From a virus, in the IMG/VR virus record IMGVR_UViG_3300045115_000088, positions 1 to 38,658 of that record: a DNA stretch of 38,658 nucleotides; one strand, 5' to 3'. Below are positions 1,136 to 37,362 of the stretch, in pieces. A program made the translations under genes and the position numbers. The notes under the pieces were generated by a model. That model did not search any database. It had not been told where the DNA came from and saw only the letters and a list, made by a program, of their open reading frames with translations. The stretch's first letter is position 1, and the number at the start of each line of letters is the position of its first letter.

Positions 1136-1429
1136 TCAGCCCTCCGACTTGCAGGCGTCTTCTGCCAGACGGATGGCATCGTCAAGCGGAAGCAGGATGA
1201 TCTCGGCAGACTCCGAAGCATCCTGGAGAATGATGTTGTCGAGCACCCCCCGCGCTCTCCTGAGCCCCTGGAGTCGGTCGGGAGGATACTTGAGCTCGCA
1301 GATGCCACGGAAGGCATCGCGGGCAAACTCGTCAAGGCCATCCAGGCTCCGAGCGGAGTAGACGGCCAGTCGTTCGCAACACCGGTCACAGGCCGCCATG
1401 ATGTTGATGGTGCTCGTGTCCATGCTCAT
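1136..1429 (-). CDS. Hypothetical protein, 97 aa
   Basis: I chose the ATG at 1429 because it forms an ATGA overlap with the stop of the RecE-like gene and lies about 6 bases after GAGGTG. An in-frame GTG at 1438 would overlap that SD. The product is a small helical protein with Cys residues near the N-terminus (C-x2-C about residues 14-17) and an acidic C-terminal half. No family is recognised. Location immediately after the nuclease gene and tight coupling imply co-expression with the recombination genes. Confidence 0.6.
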   Translation of the reverse strand: MSMDTSTINIMAACDRCCERLAVYSARSLDGLDEFARDAFRGICELKYPPDRLQGLRRARGVLDNIILQDASESAEIILLPLDDAIRLAEDACKSEG

Positions 1430-2232
1430 TTCGCCCACCTCGGTAGTTCGACCAGCTCAATGCCGCGGGTTGCCCTTGTGGGCCAACCGTGCGTCCGGTA
1501 GTAGAGGGCCTTGCCGAGCGCCTCCACGATTCGCCCCCACCAGTATTCCCGCTCCGTCAGGCCGGGTTCCTTCTCCTTGGCCCAGTCGAAGTGCACAGTA
1601 CCGACGAGGGGATACTTCGTGTTGGTCGGGATGCCGACGAGACAGAACGGGCGGTCAATGCCTGTTGCCTCGCGGGTGGCCGCCGCGTACCAAAGCATCT
1701 GCACAGGCCAGCGCCGCCGACCAGCGACATCGGACAACCCATTCCCGTCGCTGTGGAAGTTGCCGGTCTTGAGGTCGCAAACCCAGTTGGCAGAGAGGAT
1801 GTCGATGCGGGCCTTGCAGGGCAACCCGGTCGGCAAGTCGGTCCAGAAGAGGCTCACTTCCGTCTCTGCACCGGCCAGCAGATCGGCCACCTTGGGATCT
1901 TCGAGAAGGGCCTTGGCGCAGAGCCTCGCCCGCTCCCATTTCGCTGGGGTGAACAGGCGACGCCCGTACTCATCGGGTAGCGGGTTTCCGTCATCATCCA
2001 TCTTGCGGCGCCCCGTCGCACAGGCGAACAGGGAATCGACGGAAACGGGTTCAAGCACCATCGCGTGAATCAGGGTGCCCAGTGCCATCTCCTCGGTTTC
2101 TTCCGTCGGCTGGCCTGCCGTGGCCTCAGTTTCGAGAAGGTCTCGGAGTAGGGTCGACGACACCGCATCGACCGCATGGTACTCAGCGGCAGGCATCCTA
2201 CGGACGATGGTGACGGGGCCGTGGCGGCTCAT
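1426..2232 (-). CDS. recE: RecE/exonuclease VIII-like PD-(D/E)XK nuclease
   Basis: This is a predicted 5'-3' dsDNA exonuclease that resects ends so the adjacent RecT-type protein can anneal single strands. The 268 residues match the catalytic module of the phage/prophage RecE family (exodeoxyribonuclease VIII, PDDEXK-like, DUF3799-type). The N-terminal YHAVDAVSSTLL segment (18-29) resembles the family entry motif, and GTLIHAMVLEP (52-62) carries the conserved His. An acidic residue lies near 124-126, D144 sits in the RIDIL segment, VCDLKTG (151-157) supplies the D-x-K pair, and Q178 is in QMLWYAAA. It is far shorter than E. coli RecE (866 aa) but normal for the phage catalytic form. The start at 2232 has GGAGGTGCATGA before it. 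It belongs to the leftward operon, two genes after RecT, and overlaps the next gene by 4 bases. The family call is firm; the exact polarity is inferred from the family. Confidence 0.88.
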   Translation of the reverse strand: MSRHGPVTIVRRMPAAEYHAVDAVSSTLLRDLLETEATAGQPTEETEEMALGTLIHAMVLEPVSVDSLFACATGRRKMDDDGNPLPDEYGRRLFTPAKWERARLCAKALLEDPKVADLLAGAETEVSLFWTDLPTGLPCKARIDILSANWVCDLKTGNFHSDGNGLSDVAGRRRWPVQMLWYAAATREATGIDRPFCLVGIPTNTKYPLVGTVHFDWAKEKEPGLTEREYWWGRIVEALGKALYYRTHGWPTRATRGIELVELPRWAK

Positions 2233-2296
2233 TCATGCACCTCCAAGCGGTCTCTCTCGTTTGACGTCAGCGCCCACCGGAACAGCACTTCGAGCG

Positions 2297-2315
2297 TCAT
2301 CGCAACCTGCGATGA
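2297..2315. promoter_or_regulatory. Perfect 8-bp inverted repeat between recE and the upstream gene
   Basis: TCATCGCA and TGCGATGA are separated by three bases, in the only sizeable gap (about 95 bases) of the leftward RecE/RecT operon. A 3-base loop with no following T-run is more typical of a dimeric regulator operator than of an intrinsic terminator. A processing hairpin is also possible. Confidence 0.45.
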
Positions 2316-2327
2316 TCCGCCCGCTTT

Positions 2328-2609
2328 TCAGTCCCACCCTGTGTAGTCGCACCAGGCGCGCACCGCGAAAAACCTACCGTCCTTCAGTCGTCCAACGGCA
2401 ATCCAATCATCTCCATCGTTTTCGCCATTGGCAGACCCGAGGATTTCAGCCACGTCGCAGAGAGAAAACGCCGCCAATGGAGCACTATCTCCATTGAGGA
2501 CAGGCTCAGGAGTCCCGTACTTGAACACTTCGCCCCAGTCGTACGCAACGCCGTCCCATGTCTTATTCGGGTCTCCAAGCATGTCCTGTAGTGAGGCTTC
2601 GGTCTTCAT
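2328..2609 (-). CDS. Hypothetical acidic protein, 93 aa
   Basis: The ATG at 2609 overlaps the RecT stop as ATGA and has a GCAGGA SD. The protein is acidic, with about seven Trp/Tyr residues, and its C-terminus reads as strands (IAVGRLKDGRFFAVRAWCDYTGWD split over the last 25 residues). The sequence looks like a single small alpha/beta domain. No family is recognised. Sitting between RecT and RecE, it could be a recombination partner, but that is inference only. Confidence 0.65.
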   Translation of the reverse strand: MKTEASLQDMLGDPNKTWDGVAYDWGEVFKYGTPEPVLNGDSAPLAAFSLCDVAEILGSANGENDGDDWIAVGRLKDGRFFAVRAWCDYTGWD

Positions 2610-3403
2610 TCCTGCACCTCATCGACCTCTTCCACGTCCACGAACGGCAGGTCGGCTGCCGGAGCCGTCATCGGGTGTGCTGGCCTACCGAGAGTCGCCG
2701 CATCGTCCAGGTTCACGGCGAGCTGCATCTGCACGGACTTGGGCAGGTACTTGTAGAGCGCCCGCACCGCCGTCTTTTTCCACATCTCTTCGGGCCAGTT
2801 CTTCCACGGGGAGTCACCGAAGGATGCCGACTTGCTCACCTTGCGCCGCGCCTCCACTTCGTCCGCGGAGAGAACGACGCAATCGAGGCCGCCGTTGACG
2901 TAGGTGGCGCACGCATAGGCGTGGAGCAGTTTCGCACCAAGCGCGGACTTGCGGACGTGTGTGATCTTCCGGTCGGTCCCCAAGGTGTACTCGAAGTCAT
3001 CCCCCTCCCGCACGACCTCGGCCCAGATGTTCACGATTCGGCCGGAGTTGCGGGCAAGTTGGATCATGCCCTGGTAGCCGAGTTGCATGGTCACGTTCTG
3101 CTTGTAGGGCACCGGGTAGCAATGCCCCATCACCGGCTCAAGCTGGAATTCGGCCATCTGTAGGATCGCCAACGCGAACGACCGGGGGTTGCACTCCAGC
3201 AACTTCGGGTTCTTGCGGAGCATGTTCTCCGCGAGCAGGCAGAATCGCCCGGCCTCGGATGGCTCCTTGAGGACTGCCTGGATTAGCAGCTTGTATTGGA
3301 CAAGGACCTCCTGGAACTCGCGGAATCTCTGAGCGGGCGTCGGTGCGGGCATCGGCTCCGACGTGCGCTTGGCCTTCGTGTCCATCGGCAGGTTGTCGCT
3401 CAT
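2606..3403 (-). CDS. recT: RecT-family single-strand annealing protein
   Basis: This is a recombinase that coats ssDNA and pairs complementary strands, working with the RecE-type exonuclease encoded just downstream. The 265 residues carry the RecT hallmarks. These are CNPRSFALAILQMAEFQLEP (about 75-94), then the YPVPYKQNVTMQLGYQGMI region with its G-Y-x-G-M core (about 97-117), LARNSGRIVNIWAEVV, and the later WPEEMWKKTAVRALYKYLP segment (about 210-230). Length is typical (E. coli RecT is 269 aa). The tail after residue 240 is Ala/Pro-rich and ends in an acidic VDVEEVDEV stretch. Such acidic tips are common on ssDNA-binding proteins and may contact partners; that last point is inference. The gene overlaps both neighbours by 4 bases. 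Confidence 0.93.
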   Translation of the reverse strand: MSDNLPMDTKAKRTSEPMPAPTPAQRFREFQEVLVQYKLLIQAVLKEPSEAGRFCLLAENMLRKNPKLLECNPRSFALAILQMAEFQLEPVMGHCYPVPYKQNVTMQLGYQGMIQLARNSGRIVNIWAEVVREGDDFEYTLGTDRKITHVRKSALGAKLLHAYACATYVNGGLDCVVLSADEVEARRKVSKSASFGDSPWKNWPEEMWKKTAVRALYKYLPKSVQMQLAVNLDDAATLGRPAHPMTAPAADLPFVDVEEVDEVQE

Positions 3404-31020: not shown

Positions 31021-31530
31021 CTAGTGGTTGTCAAAGATGTAGAACATGCCACCCAGTTCAACGGCGGAAATGTCTCCGTTGTATTCCATGTCGCGCCCCA
31101 TTTTCTCCCAGTCGATGTAGGAATCCAGCCAGTCCGGGATCTCCTGGCAACTCCGCGTCATCTCCTCAGCGTAGTCCGCAACGGAGTCGAACGCGCCGCG
31201 ATACGCGTCTCCGATCTTCTCCTCCAGGTCCGACGCTTCGCGGGGCAGGTAGTGATCCCCGACGTGCTCGGCATAGGCCCGGATAAGGTCTGGGTCCATG
31301 CCCCCGTCGATGCACCCCTTGACGGCCCACACGAGATCCCAATCCGGGGCCTCCCCGAAGTCAACGGGCGCGTCCTCCCAGTCGGCGCACATGACCTCAT
31401 CCGCGTTGCGGGTCGCGGCCATCACGGCCGCCCAGAATTCGTCACGGTCCGCGTAGTCGTCGGGGTCGAGCCAGTCTCCAACGATTGCCCCCGCGTTGTA
31501 CGATCCCCAGTTCTGAACGAATACTCTCAT
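31021..31530 (-). CDS. ardA: ArdA antirestriction protein (DNA mimic)
   Basis: ArdA proteins mimic bent B-form DNA with surface acidic residues and occupy type I restriction-modification enzymes, so incoming phage DNA escapes cleavage. The 169-residue length is typical (about 165). The N-terminus RVFVQNWGSYNAGAIVGDWL (2-21) is the family's 'I-Y-V-x-x-L-x-x-Y-N-x-G-x-x-x-G-x-W' signature. It is followed by the acidic EVMCADWEDAPVDFGE block and an acidic helical C-terminus (ASDLEEKIGDAYRGAFDSVA, YIDWEKMGRDMEYNGDI). The protein is strongly acidic throughout. The start has AAAGGGGGGATGCT upstream, part of the shared G-run leader. It would be expected early in infection, consistent with the leftward early-type cluster. 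Confidence 0.9.
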   Translation of the reverse strand: MRVFVQNWGSYNAGAIVGDWLDPDDYADRDEFWAAVMAATRNADEVMCADWEDAPVDFGEAPDWDLVWAVKGCIDGGMDPDLIRAYAEHVGDHYLPREASDLEEKIGDAYRGAFDSVADYAEEMTRSCQEIPDWLDSYIDWEKMGRDMEYNGDISAVELGGMFYIFDNH

Positions 31531-31547: not shown

Positions 31548-32123
31548 CTACGCGGCCAGTCTACGGACCGCGACCCGATCCCCGTCGCGCTCCAGTCTAA
31601 CGCCCGGGACAGACACAACCACGCATCCGCCCGTCAACACACACAGCCTGCGCATCGTGCGAGGACGGAGACGGCAGGACCACTCCCCGCCGCGCTCCCC
31701 GGCTTTCTCGCACAGCCACTCGACCAACCGAACAGCCCCCAACAGCTCCCACCACGCCCGGACATCCCGGACGCGGGCGAACAACCCCGCCGACCATGCC
31801 GGGACCGTCGCACCCTGTTTCCGCTTGCTCCGGCTCTCCCCGCCTCGAGCGAGCGGCCACGAAATGACCGCATCGGCCGTCCGCGTCTCGACCCGGCATC
31901 CAACCGGAGCATAGGCCACGGTGGACACCGGCAGCGACAGAACCGCGGCCAGTCCGGCCTCGGGGGGCGGCTCGTCCGCCTCGTCCGGCGCATCCTCCAC
32001 GGACACGCACGCGTCCATGTCCGACCACTCGCACCCGGTCAGGTCGTCCGCGGGGATGCCGTCCAGGGATACGAGGCCATCCAGGCGCACGGCGATGCGA
32101 CCAACGCAGGCGTACCAGATCAT
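31548..32123 (-). CDS. Hypothetical protein, 191 aa, upstream of ardA
   Basis: ATG 32123 overlaps the stop of the 40-residue gene as ATGA with a GAGGTGCGCTC SD; a longer frame upstream is not supported. The protein has a beta-rich N-terminal domain (IWYACVGRIAVRLDGLVSLD), an acidic Pro-rich linker (EDAPDEADEPPPEAG, about 43-57), then a basic second half with Trp-rich helix (RDVRAWWELLGAVRLVEWLC). Unlike its neighbours it is net basic at the C-terminus. No recognised family. It is coupled to the small gene upstream and 17 bases from ArdA. Confidence 0.62.
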   Translation of the reverse strand: MIWYACVGRIAVRLDGLVSLDGIPADDLTGCEWSDMDACVSVEDAPDEADEPPPEAGLAAVLSLPVSTVAYAPVGCRVETRTADAVISWPLARGGESRSKRKQGATVPAWSAGLFARVRDVRAWWELLGAVRLVEWLCEKAGERGGEWSCRLRPRTMRRLCVLTGGCVVVSVPGVRLERDGDRVAVRRLAA

Positions 32124-32242
32124 GAGCGCACCTCGCGGATCTGGCGCATGAGCTGCTCGCACAGCTCGACGGCCCGATCCCCCAACCTGGACTGCTCGGC
32201 CTCCCATTCTCTCACGATCTCTGCCACCAAGTGTTTCGTCAT
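32120..32242 (-). CDS. Small helical protein, 40 aa, first gene of the accessory cluster
   Basis: The start at 32242 has GGGGGGATGACA before it; an ATG six bases upstream would overlap the SD. The sequence begins MTKHLVAEIVREWEAEQSRL and continues as one amphipathic charged helix to the end, with an ATGA overlap to the next gene. Such a short gene would usually be missed, but its SD and coupling are both good. Function unknown; perhaps a regulatory leader peptide or coiled-coil partner. Confidence 0.55.
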   Translation of the reverse strand: MTKHLVAEIVREWEAEQSRLGDRAVELCEQLMRQIREVRS

Positions 32243-32306
32243 TGTCATCCCCCCTTGTCACCGCCACCATCGGCGGGCATCCCGGTATAGTGCAAGCGCC
32301 GTGCCA

Positions 32307-32322
32307 AACGTGGATGCACGTT
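32307..32322. promoter_or_regulatory. Palindrome AACGTG-N4-CACGTT upstream of the leftward cluster
   Basis: Perfect 6-bp arms around GATG, lying about 65 bases upstream of the first leftward gene (32242) and close to a TATACC sequence on the minus strand. A repressor or activator site is likely. Confidence 0.45.
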
Positions 32323-32393
32323 GACGATTCGCCGCAAACCCGCATCGCAGGCCAGTGCGCCGACCACAACCGAATCGGCCACCGGGCAACAGG

Positions 32394-32490
32394 TTGTCTC
32401 ACGACTGTCTCGCCGGTGTCTCACAAGTGTCTCACGAACGTCCGGCCCTACTCCCATGCGGGTGCGCGGTGTCTCACCACTGTCTCACGC
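32394..32490. repeat. 11-bp iteron array (consensus NTGTCTCACSA)
   Basis: Four contiguous 11-bp units start at 32394, 32405, 32416 and 32427, each containing TGTCTC. After a degenerate interval of about 31 bases, two more units start at 32469 and 32480. The exact 11-base period puts the sites on one face of the helix and cannot be codon-driven. Such phased repeats bind initiators at phage/plasmid origins or cooperative regulators. Confidence 0.72.
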
Positions 32491-32499
32491 CGGAAACCT

Positions 32500-32950
32500 C
32501 ACAAACCACACACGCCTCCCCGTCCTTGCCGGCTACCTCCGGGGAAAAATCTCGCGCGCCCGGGACACTGACCGGATGTATTAATAGTCCCGGATCTTCA
32601 ACGGTCAGGGAAGGGTTATCTATCCCCGTAGTCCTATCGGACTACTCTACAGAGACAACCCCCCCCTGTAGTCCCCCCCCTTTCAAGGCCAGCGCCGCAC
32701 CTCGTGGCACCAGGCAACGACCGGGCACGCACGGCCGAAAGTCACAAACCCCACACGGCCGACAGAAGTACCCCCTCCCGTGGGGCGCGCGGAAAATCAC
32801 AAACCTATCGAACCTCACACGGCAGACGGGGGACGGACGAGGGAAGAGAGAGGTTTGTTAGGTTTGGGGCCTTTCCTCCCCCCTACCCCCCGCCATGACC
32901 GCCTCAGCACCCCCGCCCCGGGGGTGCGAGAAGGGTGGGACCCACAAACC
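32500..32950. repeat. Dispersed CACAAACC repeats
   Basis: CACAAACC occurs at 32500, 32743, 32798 and 32943, and the complement core GGTTTG at 32852 and 32861. The copies at 32743 and 32798 are also followed by CACACGGC and a GACRG-like end (at about 32752 and 32816). No codon pattern explains them. Confidence 0.5.
32628..32645. promoter_or_regulatory. Inverted repeat GTAGTCC-N4-GGACTAC
   Basis: Perfect 7-bp arms around TATC. The half-site TAGTCC also appears at about 32585 and 32668, giving three copies in one orientation plus the inverse. Probably a protein-binding site or hairpin within the origin-like region. Confidence 0.45.
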
Positions 32951-33075
32951 CTTCGCCTCATCAACCAACTCCCCGCCCACCCGACGGGTCCCTTCTCCTT
33001 TCTTCCCTCTCCCATTTCGGGACTTCCGTCTGTCCGCGCGCGCTCTTTTGTGCCATGCCGGACCGGAGACGGTTC

Positions 33076-33104
33076 TTGCGAATGCCCCTGTGGACGCGTA
33101 GGAT
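33076..33104 (+). promoter_or_regulatory. Rightward promoter for the isolated zinc-finger gene
   Basis: TTGCGA (33076-33081) and TAGGAT (33099-33104) are 17 bases apart, about 80 bases before the ATG at 33183. Moderate match to consensus. Confidence 0.35.
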
Positions 33105-33182
33105 GGGCCTAGAACGCGAGGAAGGCCGGAGGGGGCACCTCGGATATGGGTGGTACGAAAAACGGGCCAAGGGAGGGCAAGG

Positions 33183-33830
33183 ATGGAACAGGACAAGAGG
33201 GATCGGCGGTTGGAGTTGTTGAGCAAGCCGTTGATGGATTTACGTCCGAGGGAGAGGTCGGAGGTAACGCGGAAGAAGTTGCGGGAACGGCGGCAGTATG
33301 CGTGGACGCACAACTCGTTGCTGCGTGTGATCCGGGTGATGTGCCAGCATTGCCGCGGCGGGGAGGAGGGGATGGTGGTGAAGTGTCGCCGGGTGCGGTG
33401 TCCGGTGTGGCCTTGGCGGTTGGTGAAGGGGACGGCGGACGGGTTTCGGATCGCGCGCGACATGGTGGAGCTCGAGCAGCGGCAGGATCGGATAGTGGCG
33501 GCGCGGTTGCGAGCGGAGCAGGATATTGCGTATGAGGTGCGGGGGATCGAGGCGTTGGAGTTTCCGTGGTGGCGCGGTCCTCAAGAGGGGTTGTCGGTGG
33601 ACGAGGAGATGGAGGGGTTGTTGCAGGAGCAGTATGGAGCGGGGACGGCGGAGGTGGAGCGGTTGATGGAGGAGGCCCGTGCGGTTGCGGAGGGGTTGCA
33701 GGCGGAGGCGGCGGAGGTTGGGGCGATGCGGAAGGAGGTGTGGGGGAGTCATCCGGGGATGCAGACGAGATCGGGACAAGGGGAGGGGAGGGGGCCGCGT
33801 GCGGTGGAGAAGAAGTTGAAGGTGGACTAG
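33183..33830 (+). CDS. Zinc-finger-like phage protein beside the putative origin
   Basis: The ATG at 33183 follows GGAGGGCAAGG. The 215-residue protein is basic at the N-terminus (EQDKRDRRLELLSK, RPRERSEVTRKKLRERRQYA). It carries a Cys4 motif, C54-x2-C57-x10-C68-x4-C73, embedded in RVIRVMCQHCRGGEEGMVVK then CRRVRCPVWPWRLVKG. The same 'C-x2-C-x-GG...V-x-x-C...C-P-x-W-P-x-R' arrangement is found in many uncharacterised phage early proteins. The remainder is a charged helical coiled-coil. It is the only rightward gene outside the late operon, uses many TTG/GCG/CGG codons unlike its neighbours, and abuts the iterons, so an initiator or regulator role is a reasonable guess. Its stop shares CTAG with the converging gene. 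Confidence 0.72.
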   Translation: MEQDKRDRRLELLSKPLMDLRPRERSEVTRKKLRERRQYAWTHNSLLRVIRVMCQHCRGGEEGMVVKCRRVRCPVWPWRLVKGTADGFRIARDMVELEQRQDRIVAARLRAEQDIAYEVRGIEALEFPWWRGPQEGLSVDEEMEGLLQEQYGAGTAEVERLMEEARAVAEGLQAEAAEVGAMRKEVWGSHPGMQTRSGQGEGRGPRAVEKKLKVD

Positions 33831-34030
33831 ACGGGGATGCAGCGGCGGTAGCGGATGATGGGGAAGGACTTAGGGGCTTCGTCGCCGGTGCGGTTGGGGG
33901 CTTCGCCTTGATAGCAGGGGGTTTCGGAGTCGGGGCATCCCTTCTTGTGTTTGTGGGGGATGGCCTTCGAGCAGGAGCGGACGAAGGTGCAATCGGCCTG
34001 GTCGCAACGGCATCGCGGTTTCTTCTTCAT
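33827..34030 (-). CDS. Cys-rich microprotein, 67 aa
   Basis: ATG 34030 has AGGAG five bases upstream; a longer frame is unsupported. The N-terminus is Lys-rich, then Cys residues occur at about 7, 9, 14, 20, 33 and 39 (CRCDQADCTFVRSC, KKGCPDSETPC) with His between them: likely one or two zinc sites. The C-terminus is a basic strand. It is the last gene of the leftward replication operon; the stop overlaps the stop of the converging gene. Confidence 0.68.
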   Translation of the reverse strand: MKKKPRCRCDQADCTFVRSCSKAIPHKHKKGCPDSETPCYQGEAPNRTGDEAPKSFPIIRYRRCIPV

Positions 34031-34203
34031 GGGTTCTCCTGTTGGACGCAACGGGCGTCGGTCATGGGCAAGAGGAAGACGGCGAGGCAAGTTGCGGGGG
34101 TCGTGCATGGTCCCCAACGGTCGGGCTCGTGGGGGGTCGCGTGGGGGCAATGGTTTGCTGCGGGGCAATGGTCGGTGTGGATGCAAAGCACGGGCGGTTT
34201 CAT
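34027..34203 (-). CDS. Cys/His-rich microprotein, 58 aa
   Basis: The ATG at 34203 overlaps the upstream stop and the stop overlaps the downstream start (both ATGA). Residues include CIHTDHC, NHCPHATPHE and GPCTTPATC: six or seven Cys with several His in a 45-residue stretch, so a compact metal-binding fold is likely. The C-terminal LAVFLLP is mildly hydrophobic. No family recognised. Confidence 0.62.
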   Translation of the reverse strand: MKPPVLCIHTDHCPAANHCPHATPHEPDRWGPCTTPATCLAVFLLPMTDARCVQQENP

Positions 34204-35927: not shown

Positions 35928-36472
35928 GCGTTCTCCTTGTCGGTGAGGTTCTTGCGTGCGGCATCGAGGAGTCGCGGGTTGACGCCGGCCCCGATGGTCC
36001 GGGTGTCCCCGTGGATGCCGCGCAACTCGCAGGCGAACGAGTCGCCGGAGCGCCGGACGCGCTCGAAGTGTGCCATGAACTCCTTGCGTTTCCAGTCCCA
36101 CTGGTCCTCGTCGGTCTGGCAGATGGCGACCCATCCGCCGCAGAGGTGGACGGCGCGGGCGATGTCGGGGTCGTCCGAGAAGTCCGGGGTTCCGTAGGAG
36201 CCGACCCGTCGCACGGCCTCGTCTACGCGCGCCCAGGCGTGAGCGGCGCGTCCGGCGAGGTCGTCCTTGGCGGTGCCGTCCGCGAACTGTCGGACGACGG
36301 CGGGGACGGGCCAGAACTGGCATTCGGCAATGGCCCGATTGACGGCGGCGACGGCCCGGTCCTCGGAGACGTGGGCGAGCTGGTCGAGGTAGACTTGGAG
36401 CACGAGGGGTTCGGGGGTCCGATTGAAGGCGACGCACATCCCCATGATGGCCTTCTTCAGTTTGGCGCTCAT
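35924..36472 (-). CDS. Putative helicase-loader-type replication protein, 182 aa
   Basis: The ATG at 36472 overlaps the replisome-organiser stop (ATGA). The sequence begins with helical segments (LKKAIMGMCVAFNRTPEPLV, LDQLAHVSEDRAVAAVNRAI). Then comes FWPVPAVVRQFADG (about 49-62), recalling the 'F-x-P-x-P-x-x-I/V' turn of phage proteins related to helicase loaders/DUF6475, followed by a helical domain ending in QWDWKRKEFMAHFERVRRSG. Its partner gene upstream supports a role in DnaB-type helicase loading. I consider the family assignment tentative. Confidence 0.6.
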   Translation of the reverse strand: MSAKLKKAIMGMCVAFNRTPEPLVLQVYLDQLAHVSEDRAVAAVNRAIAECQFWPVPAVVRQFADGTAKDDLAGRAAHAWARVDEAVRRVGSYGTPDFSDDPDIARAVHLCGGWVAICQTDEDQWDWKRKEFMAHFERVRRSGDSFACELRGIHGDTRTIGAGVNPRLLDAARKNLTDKENA

Positions 36473-37362
36473 TGCACCCCTCCCTGTTCGGCCCGCTCCT
36501 CGGCCTCGATGTCCGCGAGCATCCGGGCGACGCCCCATTCGAGCTTGGTCATTGCCGGCCGGTTGCGGTGGTACTTGCCGTCTGCGAGCTTTGCGAAGTT
36601 CCGGGGGCGGATCAGCCATTCGAGGTCGGCCTGGAAGGGGGCCTGCCCGTCCTTGCCCGGTCCCCGGCCCATGAGGAAGTCGGACTTGCGGACCCAGGAG
36701 AAGAAGGTACGCCACCACTCAACGTTCTGCCGTTTGGGTTCTTCCCTCCATCGGGCACGGAGCAGGGTTTTCCTATGGTCGGTCCAGGAACGCATGGCGC
36801 AGAGTTCTGGAAGCAGCTCGTGGTAGGCGTCCAGGATCTCCTGATGGGGGCATTCCGGGATCTTGGACGCGTCGCCGGCAGCCGGCCGGGGACGAGAAGG
36901 CGAAGCCTTCGGCAGATCCTTTTCTTCTCCTACTCCTGATTCTACTACTACTTCTTCTACTACTTCTAGGGGCACCGTGGGGGTAGGGTGGGGGTAGGGT
37001 GGGGGTAGGGTGGTCTCACCCTGTACCCAGGCCTGAACCTCCGGGGGGTGCTTGGCAAGCGCGGCTTCAGCCGCCGTTCTCCAGGTCTCGTTCTTGCAGT
37101 TGTGCTTGATCCAACCCCGGATAGCAAAAAGGCCGTCGAACTCTCTCACGATCCTGGACAGTTGCCCGACTGCGGCGTCGAACTCTACCTCTGTGACGCA
37201 CAAGATCACAGCCGAGAGGCGCTTGCTCAGACGGACGCAGCCGCACTTGTCGCTGTTCGGGTTGATGTACAGGAACAGGTAGACCAGCTTTGCCAGGGCA
37301 GACAGGTCTGCGATCCCGTGGTGGGTCCAAATGTCGGTGTCTACTTGTCGCGAGAGCCCCAT
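36469..37362 (-). CDS. Replisome organiser / replication initiator, 297 aa
   Basis: The N-terminal winged-helix reads VDTDIWTHHGIADLSALAKL, VYLFLYINPNSDKCGCVRLS, AVGQLSRIVREFDGLFAIRG. This follows the 'fw-D-x-k-i-x-x-L-s-x-x-a-k-l-L-f-l-Y-L-x-t-n' pattern of phage replisome organisers that bind origin DNA. A disordered Pro/Glu linker (about 118-165, containing Val/Glu and Pro/Arg repeats) joins a C-terminal domain. That domain starts HQEILDAYHELLPELCAMRS and continues with WWRTFFSWVRKSDFLMGR and DLEWLIRPRNFAKLADGKY, the signature of replication proteins that recruit the helicase loader/DnaB. It is the clearest replication gene here. The upstream promoter and +1 palindrome suggest repression control. 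Confidence 0.87.
   Translation of the reverse strand: MGLSRQVDTDIWTHHGIADLSALAKLVYLFLYINPNSDKCGCVRLSKRLSAVILCVTEVEFDAAVGQLSRIVREFDGLFAIRGWIKHNCKNETWRTAAEAALAKHPPEVQAWVQGETTLPPPYPHPTPTVPLEVVEEVVVESGVGEEKDLPKASPSRPRPAAGDASKIPECPHQEILDAYHELLPELCAMRSWTDHRKTLLRARWREEPKRQNVEWWRTFFSWVRKSDFLMGRGPGKDGQAPFQADLEWLIRPRNFAKLADGKYHRNRPAMTKLEWGVARMLADIEAEERAEQGGVQ

Follow-up and report, generated by a model that had tools for sequence, protein, structure and literature searches.

The replication sites most similar to those described here are known from two phages. In SPP1, oriL lies inside gene 38 and oriR is intergenic; both consist of repeats with an AT-rich region, and both are bound by gp38 (PMC6316719, PMC3485210). 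At the intergenic site, oriR, recombination-dependent replication is perhaps triggered by a fork barrier (PMC6316719, PMC3485210). In lambda, the iterons of ori lie in the middle of gene O and are flanked by an AT-rich tract (PMC7466680).

Here we report two arrays of 11-bp phased direct repeats in the DNA of an uncultivated phage. The stretch analysed, referred to as the window, covers an entire virus record from IMG/VR, 38,658 bp long and with a G + C content of about 64%. One array, with the core TGTCTC, lies in an intergenic region and had been proposed as a candidate replication origin; the second, which is equally exact and was absent from the original prediction, lies inside the replication initiator gene (36978-37010). 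The comparison shifts the likely origin of this phage from the obvious noncoding array to the hidden in-gene array.

Results and discussion

The intergenic control region (32245-33182; 938 bp) separates a leftward operon that starts at 32242 from a rightward gene that starts at 33183. The first genes of the operon (31548-32242, minus strand) are a 40-codon ORF (32120-32242), which is preceded by a strong Shine-Dalgarno sequence and most plausibly represents the start of the operon, and the gene at 31548-32123; these are followed by the ArdA gene (31021-31530, minus strand). The rightward gene (33183-33830, plus strand; best start at ATG 33183) had no match in family searches, and its CxxC...CxxxxxC cysteine motif makes its product a possible DNA-binding protein. 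The replication genes, which encode a RuvC-like resolvase, the initiator and a DUF6475 protein, run leftward from 38465 to 33827, and genes for RecE-like and RecT proteins are located at 1426-3403. The array had been placed close to a rightward gene and facing the replication genes; the rightward gene is indeed nearby, but the replication genes converge with it, and the leftward operon across the gap is that of the 40-codon ORF and ArdA.

On the plus strand, TGTCTC occurs at 32395, 32406, 32417, 32428, 32470 and 32481, which confirms the six predicted units at their predicted places. Four contiguous 11-bp units, each consisting of TGTCTCAC or TGTCTCGC followed by NNN, form the first block (32395-32438), and two more form the second (32470-32491), which begins 42 bp after the fourth unit. 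In its longer form the unit reads TGTCTCAC in five cases and TGTCTCGC in one. The periodicity of exactly 11 bases that had been claimed for the whole array applies within each block but not between the blocks, whose offset of 42 bp is no multiple of 11 and is near four turns of 10.5 bp. The four-unit run of TGTCTC is the longest run of any 6-mer in the window at fixed periods of 7-25, and no other 6-mer reaches four units at any of these periods. Runs of four were found in none of 200 dinucleotide shuffles of the whole window and in none of 2000 shuffles of the intergenic gap. The array is a real, non-random set of helically phased direct repeats in the main noncoding gap, as originally predicted.

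The pairwise identity within the array is 96% for the 8-bp cores and 31% for the 3-bp spacers. Conserved cores between random spacers are expected of binding sites and suggest a protein-binding array and not recent slippage. Dispersed intergenic TGTCTC-phased arrays in some bacterial genomes would fit a neutral intergenic minisatellite without function, but a pattern opposite to that of recent slippage makes this explanation quite improbable for the window. Rfam and tRNA searches for an RNA element at the array gave none, and the array's own fold is not unusual. The idea that the array overlies the remains of an initiator gene was rejected, as the initiator HMM had no match there, and so was that of transposon ends, the window containing neither an inverted partner array nor a recognised transposase.

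The gap contains several further features. An AT-richer patch (32576-32625; 56% AT) lies about 85 bp from the TGTCTC array and overlaps an imperfect inverted repeat (32609-32666) with a perfect GTAGTCC/GGACTAC core, within which GTAGTCC occurs three times; the minus-strand fold of 32560-32690 has a z-score of -2.3. A second repeat family, CACAAACC, is present on the plus strand at 32500, 32743, 32798 and 32943 (span 32500-32950), with an inverted ACAAACC at 32852. A scan of the gap region for promoters found no consensus sigma-70 promoter. The largest step in GC skew of the window (+0.69) is located at 33,075; it is independent of gene direction and belongs to a 1-kb island, not to a genome-wide replichore signal. 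From 33075 to 34200 this island shows an extreme excess of G over C on the plus strand across one rightward and one leftward gene, with 4-fold-site skews of +0.84 and +0.59, respectively.

Two clusters of 11-bp direct repeats also characterise parC of plasmid R1. A partition centromere of that type would fit the two blocks and their position in a divergent promoter region, but none of the genes scanned was recognised as ParM-, ParR-, ParA- or ParB-like or as encoding an integrase or repressor, and we consider a centromere highly improbable.

The initiator gene (36469-37362, minus strand) encodes an N-terminal part of putative winged-helix type, a variable linker and a conserved C-terminal domain. 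Its profile matches phrog_5810 (5.8e-29) and the O-like phrog_345 (2.2e-23); the assignment to the O-like family and the conserved C-terminal domain are backed by PHROG matches and alignments, and the winged helix is suggested by the alignment and by weak N-terminal profile matches. The structure model is of low confidence (pLDDT 59.6) and had no meaningful PDB match. The in-gene array consists of three perfect 11-bp units, CCCTACCCCCA on the minus strand (TGGGGGTAGGG on the plus strand), at 36978-37010, with a further degenerate unit at 36967, and falls in the linker-coding part of the gene. The longest exact match at lag 11 in the initiator gene spans 26 nt, as against at most 13 nt in recoded versions (0 of 2000 synonymous recodings came near), and since a period of 11 is out of step with codons of 3 nt, these iterons cannot stem from repetition at the protein level. 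They adjoin an AT-rich tract with pyrimidines on one strand (36911-36965), which includes the 50 bp with the highest AT content in the record (36916-36965; 64% AT), 12 bp from the iterons.

Two elements of a lambda-O-type origin, in-gene iterons beyond coding constraint and a flanking AT-rich tract, are present at 36911-37019. The window resembles lambda in that the iterons lie in the middle of an initiator gene that matches the O-like PHROG 345. It differs in having three or four 11-bp direct units, whereas lambda and Stx phages have 4-6 iterons, every one of them an inverted repeat, and its intergenic TGTCTC array has no counterpart in lambda. Primary theta replication would most likely start inside the initiator gene, where the initiator may bind the CCCTACCCCCA iterons and open the adjoining AT-rich tract, as O does in lambda. 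Judged from these features, the initiator gene probably holds a better candidate for the primary origin than the intergenic array, which lies about 4.6 kb away.

If the intergenic array itself were the primary origin, bound by the initiator, the presence of phased direct repeats and of an AT-richer patch within the window's longest noncoding stretch would be accounted for, as would the skew step at 33,075. This is unlikely, because the initiator gene has iterons of its own, of another sequence, beside the AT-richest stretch of the record and in the usual place for its class. The original prediction was correct in that 11-bp phased repeats are a true mark of initiator binding sites in phages; its naming of the initiator as candidate ligand of the intergenic array is not supported in the form proposed, since the 11-bp iterons of that initiator differ from the array units and are located in its own gene.

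Helically phased repeats are a habit of this class of initiators. Viral loci encoding relatives of the C-terminal domain were collected (n = 80), and in the 67 non-redundant initiator genes the excess of repeats over recoded controls peaked at lags 10-12 and 20-23, with lag 6 likewise raised. Exact phased runs numbered 32 in 68 kb of the relatives' initiator genes versus 18 in about 1.2 Mb outside, an enrichment of about 30-fold. IMG/VR was also scanned for three units of TGTCTC at 11-bp spacing, which yielded 98 loci; at 35 of them the array lies within an initiator gene of winged-helix type. As 10 array-bearing genes served to seed the initiator HMM, 25 of these 35 matches are independent of seeding. 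These 35 arrays have a single orientation throughout, and many have a T/C-rich tract alongside. The reversed control pattern CTCTGT was found at 42 loci, 7 of them inside initiator genes, so it is the phasing, and not TGTCTC as such, that marks these genes.

The comparison indicates that 11-bp phased repeats mark these initiators generally and that the repeat sequence varies between phages. For this large class of phage initiators the apparent rule is that the DNA encoding the linker often contains iterons in helical phase (10-12 bp) and of phage-specific sequence; since the iterons differ between phages, origins and initiator specificities should often be readable from sequence. Winged-helix initiator genes at IMG/VR loci such as L008, L035, L057 and L062 share the TGTCTC core and the 11-bp spacing with the intergenic array of the window, but their arrays lie within the gene, beside a pyrimidine-rich tract, whereas that of the window is intergenic and its initiator is of a different subfamily.

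The dominant units of the two arrays in the window differ in sequence, and the sites have only single boxes with one mismatch in common. Between the two TGTCTC blocks lies CCCTACTCCCA (32446-32456, plus strand), which has one mismatch to the in-gene iteron, and a second such box, CCCTACCCCCC, is located at 32881-32891 (plus strand), also with one mismatch. Outside the initiator gene these are the only boxes in the record with at most one mismatch to the iteron, and both lie in the gap, where shuffles gave a mean of 0.07 boxes and two boxes in 0 of 500 cases. Reciprocally, the in-gene array is followed in phase by a unit (37011-37021) that contains GTCTCAC as part of GGTCTCAC (37012-37019, plus strand), one mismatch from TGTCTCAC; only 0.013 such sites would be expected that close. 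This reciprocal sharing was spotted post hoc, and as a tie between the array and the in-gene site it is suggestive only.

The arrangement of the window resembles that of SPP1 in that the initiator gene contains a site with repeats and an AT-rich region, while another site is intergenic. SPP1 further has genes for an exonuclease, an SSAP and a Holliday-junction resolvase, and the window encodes RecE-like, RecT and RuvC-like proteins. The two phages differ in that gp38 binds the direct repeats of both SPP1 sites, whereas the dominant units of the window differ between sites; the sites are also 12-13 kb apart in SPP1 and only about 4.6 kb apart in the window. Of the features of an oriR-type site, direct repeats in noncoding DNA away from the initiator gene are present at 32395-32491, and the AT-rich neighbour is represented only by the weak patch of 56% AT at a distance of 85 bp.

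By analogy with SPP1, we tentatively favour the TGTCTC array as an auxiliary, oriR-like replication-control site, with the primary origin inside the initiator gene, and rank this reading, at rather less than an even chance, above a pure operator and a primary origin. The skew step at 33,075 also counts in its favour, with the reservation that it marks only a 1-kb island. A DNA-binding protein of the phage would recognise the helically phased units in the early control region, where a second complex of the initiator or of a partner protein would form. That complex might provide a secondary or late origin, or it might block forks and so feed recombination-dependent replication, and it might incidentally control the divergent early promoters. 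The recombination-dependent role is proposed because the phage encodes RecE-like, RecT and RuvC-like proteins. Motif sharing and the precedent of oriL and oriR are compatible with a secondary-origin or fork-barrier role. The sequences show the two arrays, their departure from chance, the habit of the initiator class and the boxes in common; we infer the identity of the protein that binds the TGTCTC boxes as well as each functional step. If the array is such a second site, the window would join SPP1 as the second case in which an in-gene replication site is paired with an intergenic one.

Nearly as likely is a site with no role in replication, an operator array whose phased TGTCTCAC boxes would be bound cooperatively by a regulator of the phage, for which the cysteine-motif product of gene 33183 is a possible candidate, so as to repress or activate the divergent early promoters of the ArdA operon and gene 33183. 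The array's distance of 150-250 bp upstream from the leftward operon, within a divergent control region that has other repeat families as well (four copies of CACAAACC, three of GTAGTCC), agrees with such a function. The probability of an operator comes so close to that of the auxiliary site because the array units are unlike the initiator's iterons, a second noncoding phased array is rare among relatives with this initiator, and comparable intergenic GTGTCTCA arrays occur in phages in which an initiator of this class was not detected, several of these records being fragments. No DNA-binding gene common to these phages and the window was detected. However, repressors less often use long tandem direct repeats that lack dyad symmetry, the region yielded no consensus sigma-70 promoter, and an operator leaves unexplained both the iteron boxes and the GTCTCAC box found reciprocally in the initiator gene.

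A more elaborate reading is conceivable, though we regard it as doubtful. The window would then have two 11-bp-phased replication sites with different boxes, each containing the other's box, and one initiator, alone or with a partner, would read a two-box code that couples the first round of replication to the changeover to late replication and to early-gene control.

Relatives with the same array were sought by protein searches (initiator, 33183 protein and portal), an MCP alignment and an exact scan for the in-gene iterons, which returned only L104 and distant initiators. The sole close relative found, L104, is an 8.7-kb fragment (portal 82%) without the array region, and searches for DNA similarity against phages and plasmids gave nothing useful.

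Phased arrays of related sequence were observed in other settings. Eight otherwise unrelated phage contigs carry intergenic TGTCTCAnnnG arrays at 11 bp, several of them near terminase genes; no DNA-binding gene that they have in common with the window was detected. Thirteen short viral contigs, a group apart, have an array of TGTCTCTC at 11 bp with TTACGGGAAACA after it; L049, the one inspected, has this array upstream of an operon that includes a T7-like primase/helicase. Six loci with TGTCTCGC arrays represent one sequence type, and in the two inspected (L031 and L092) the array is located at most 60 bp from the 3' end of a primase/helicase gene. In several bacterial genomes, mostly Bacteroidales, the TGTCTC 11-bp array occurs at several intergenic places per genome (four loci in one genome, besides two further sets of three loci), sometimes near genes judged by eye to be Y1/RAYT-like (L238 and L244), and these bacterial arrays are possibly a dispersed repeat family.
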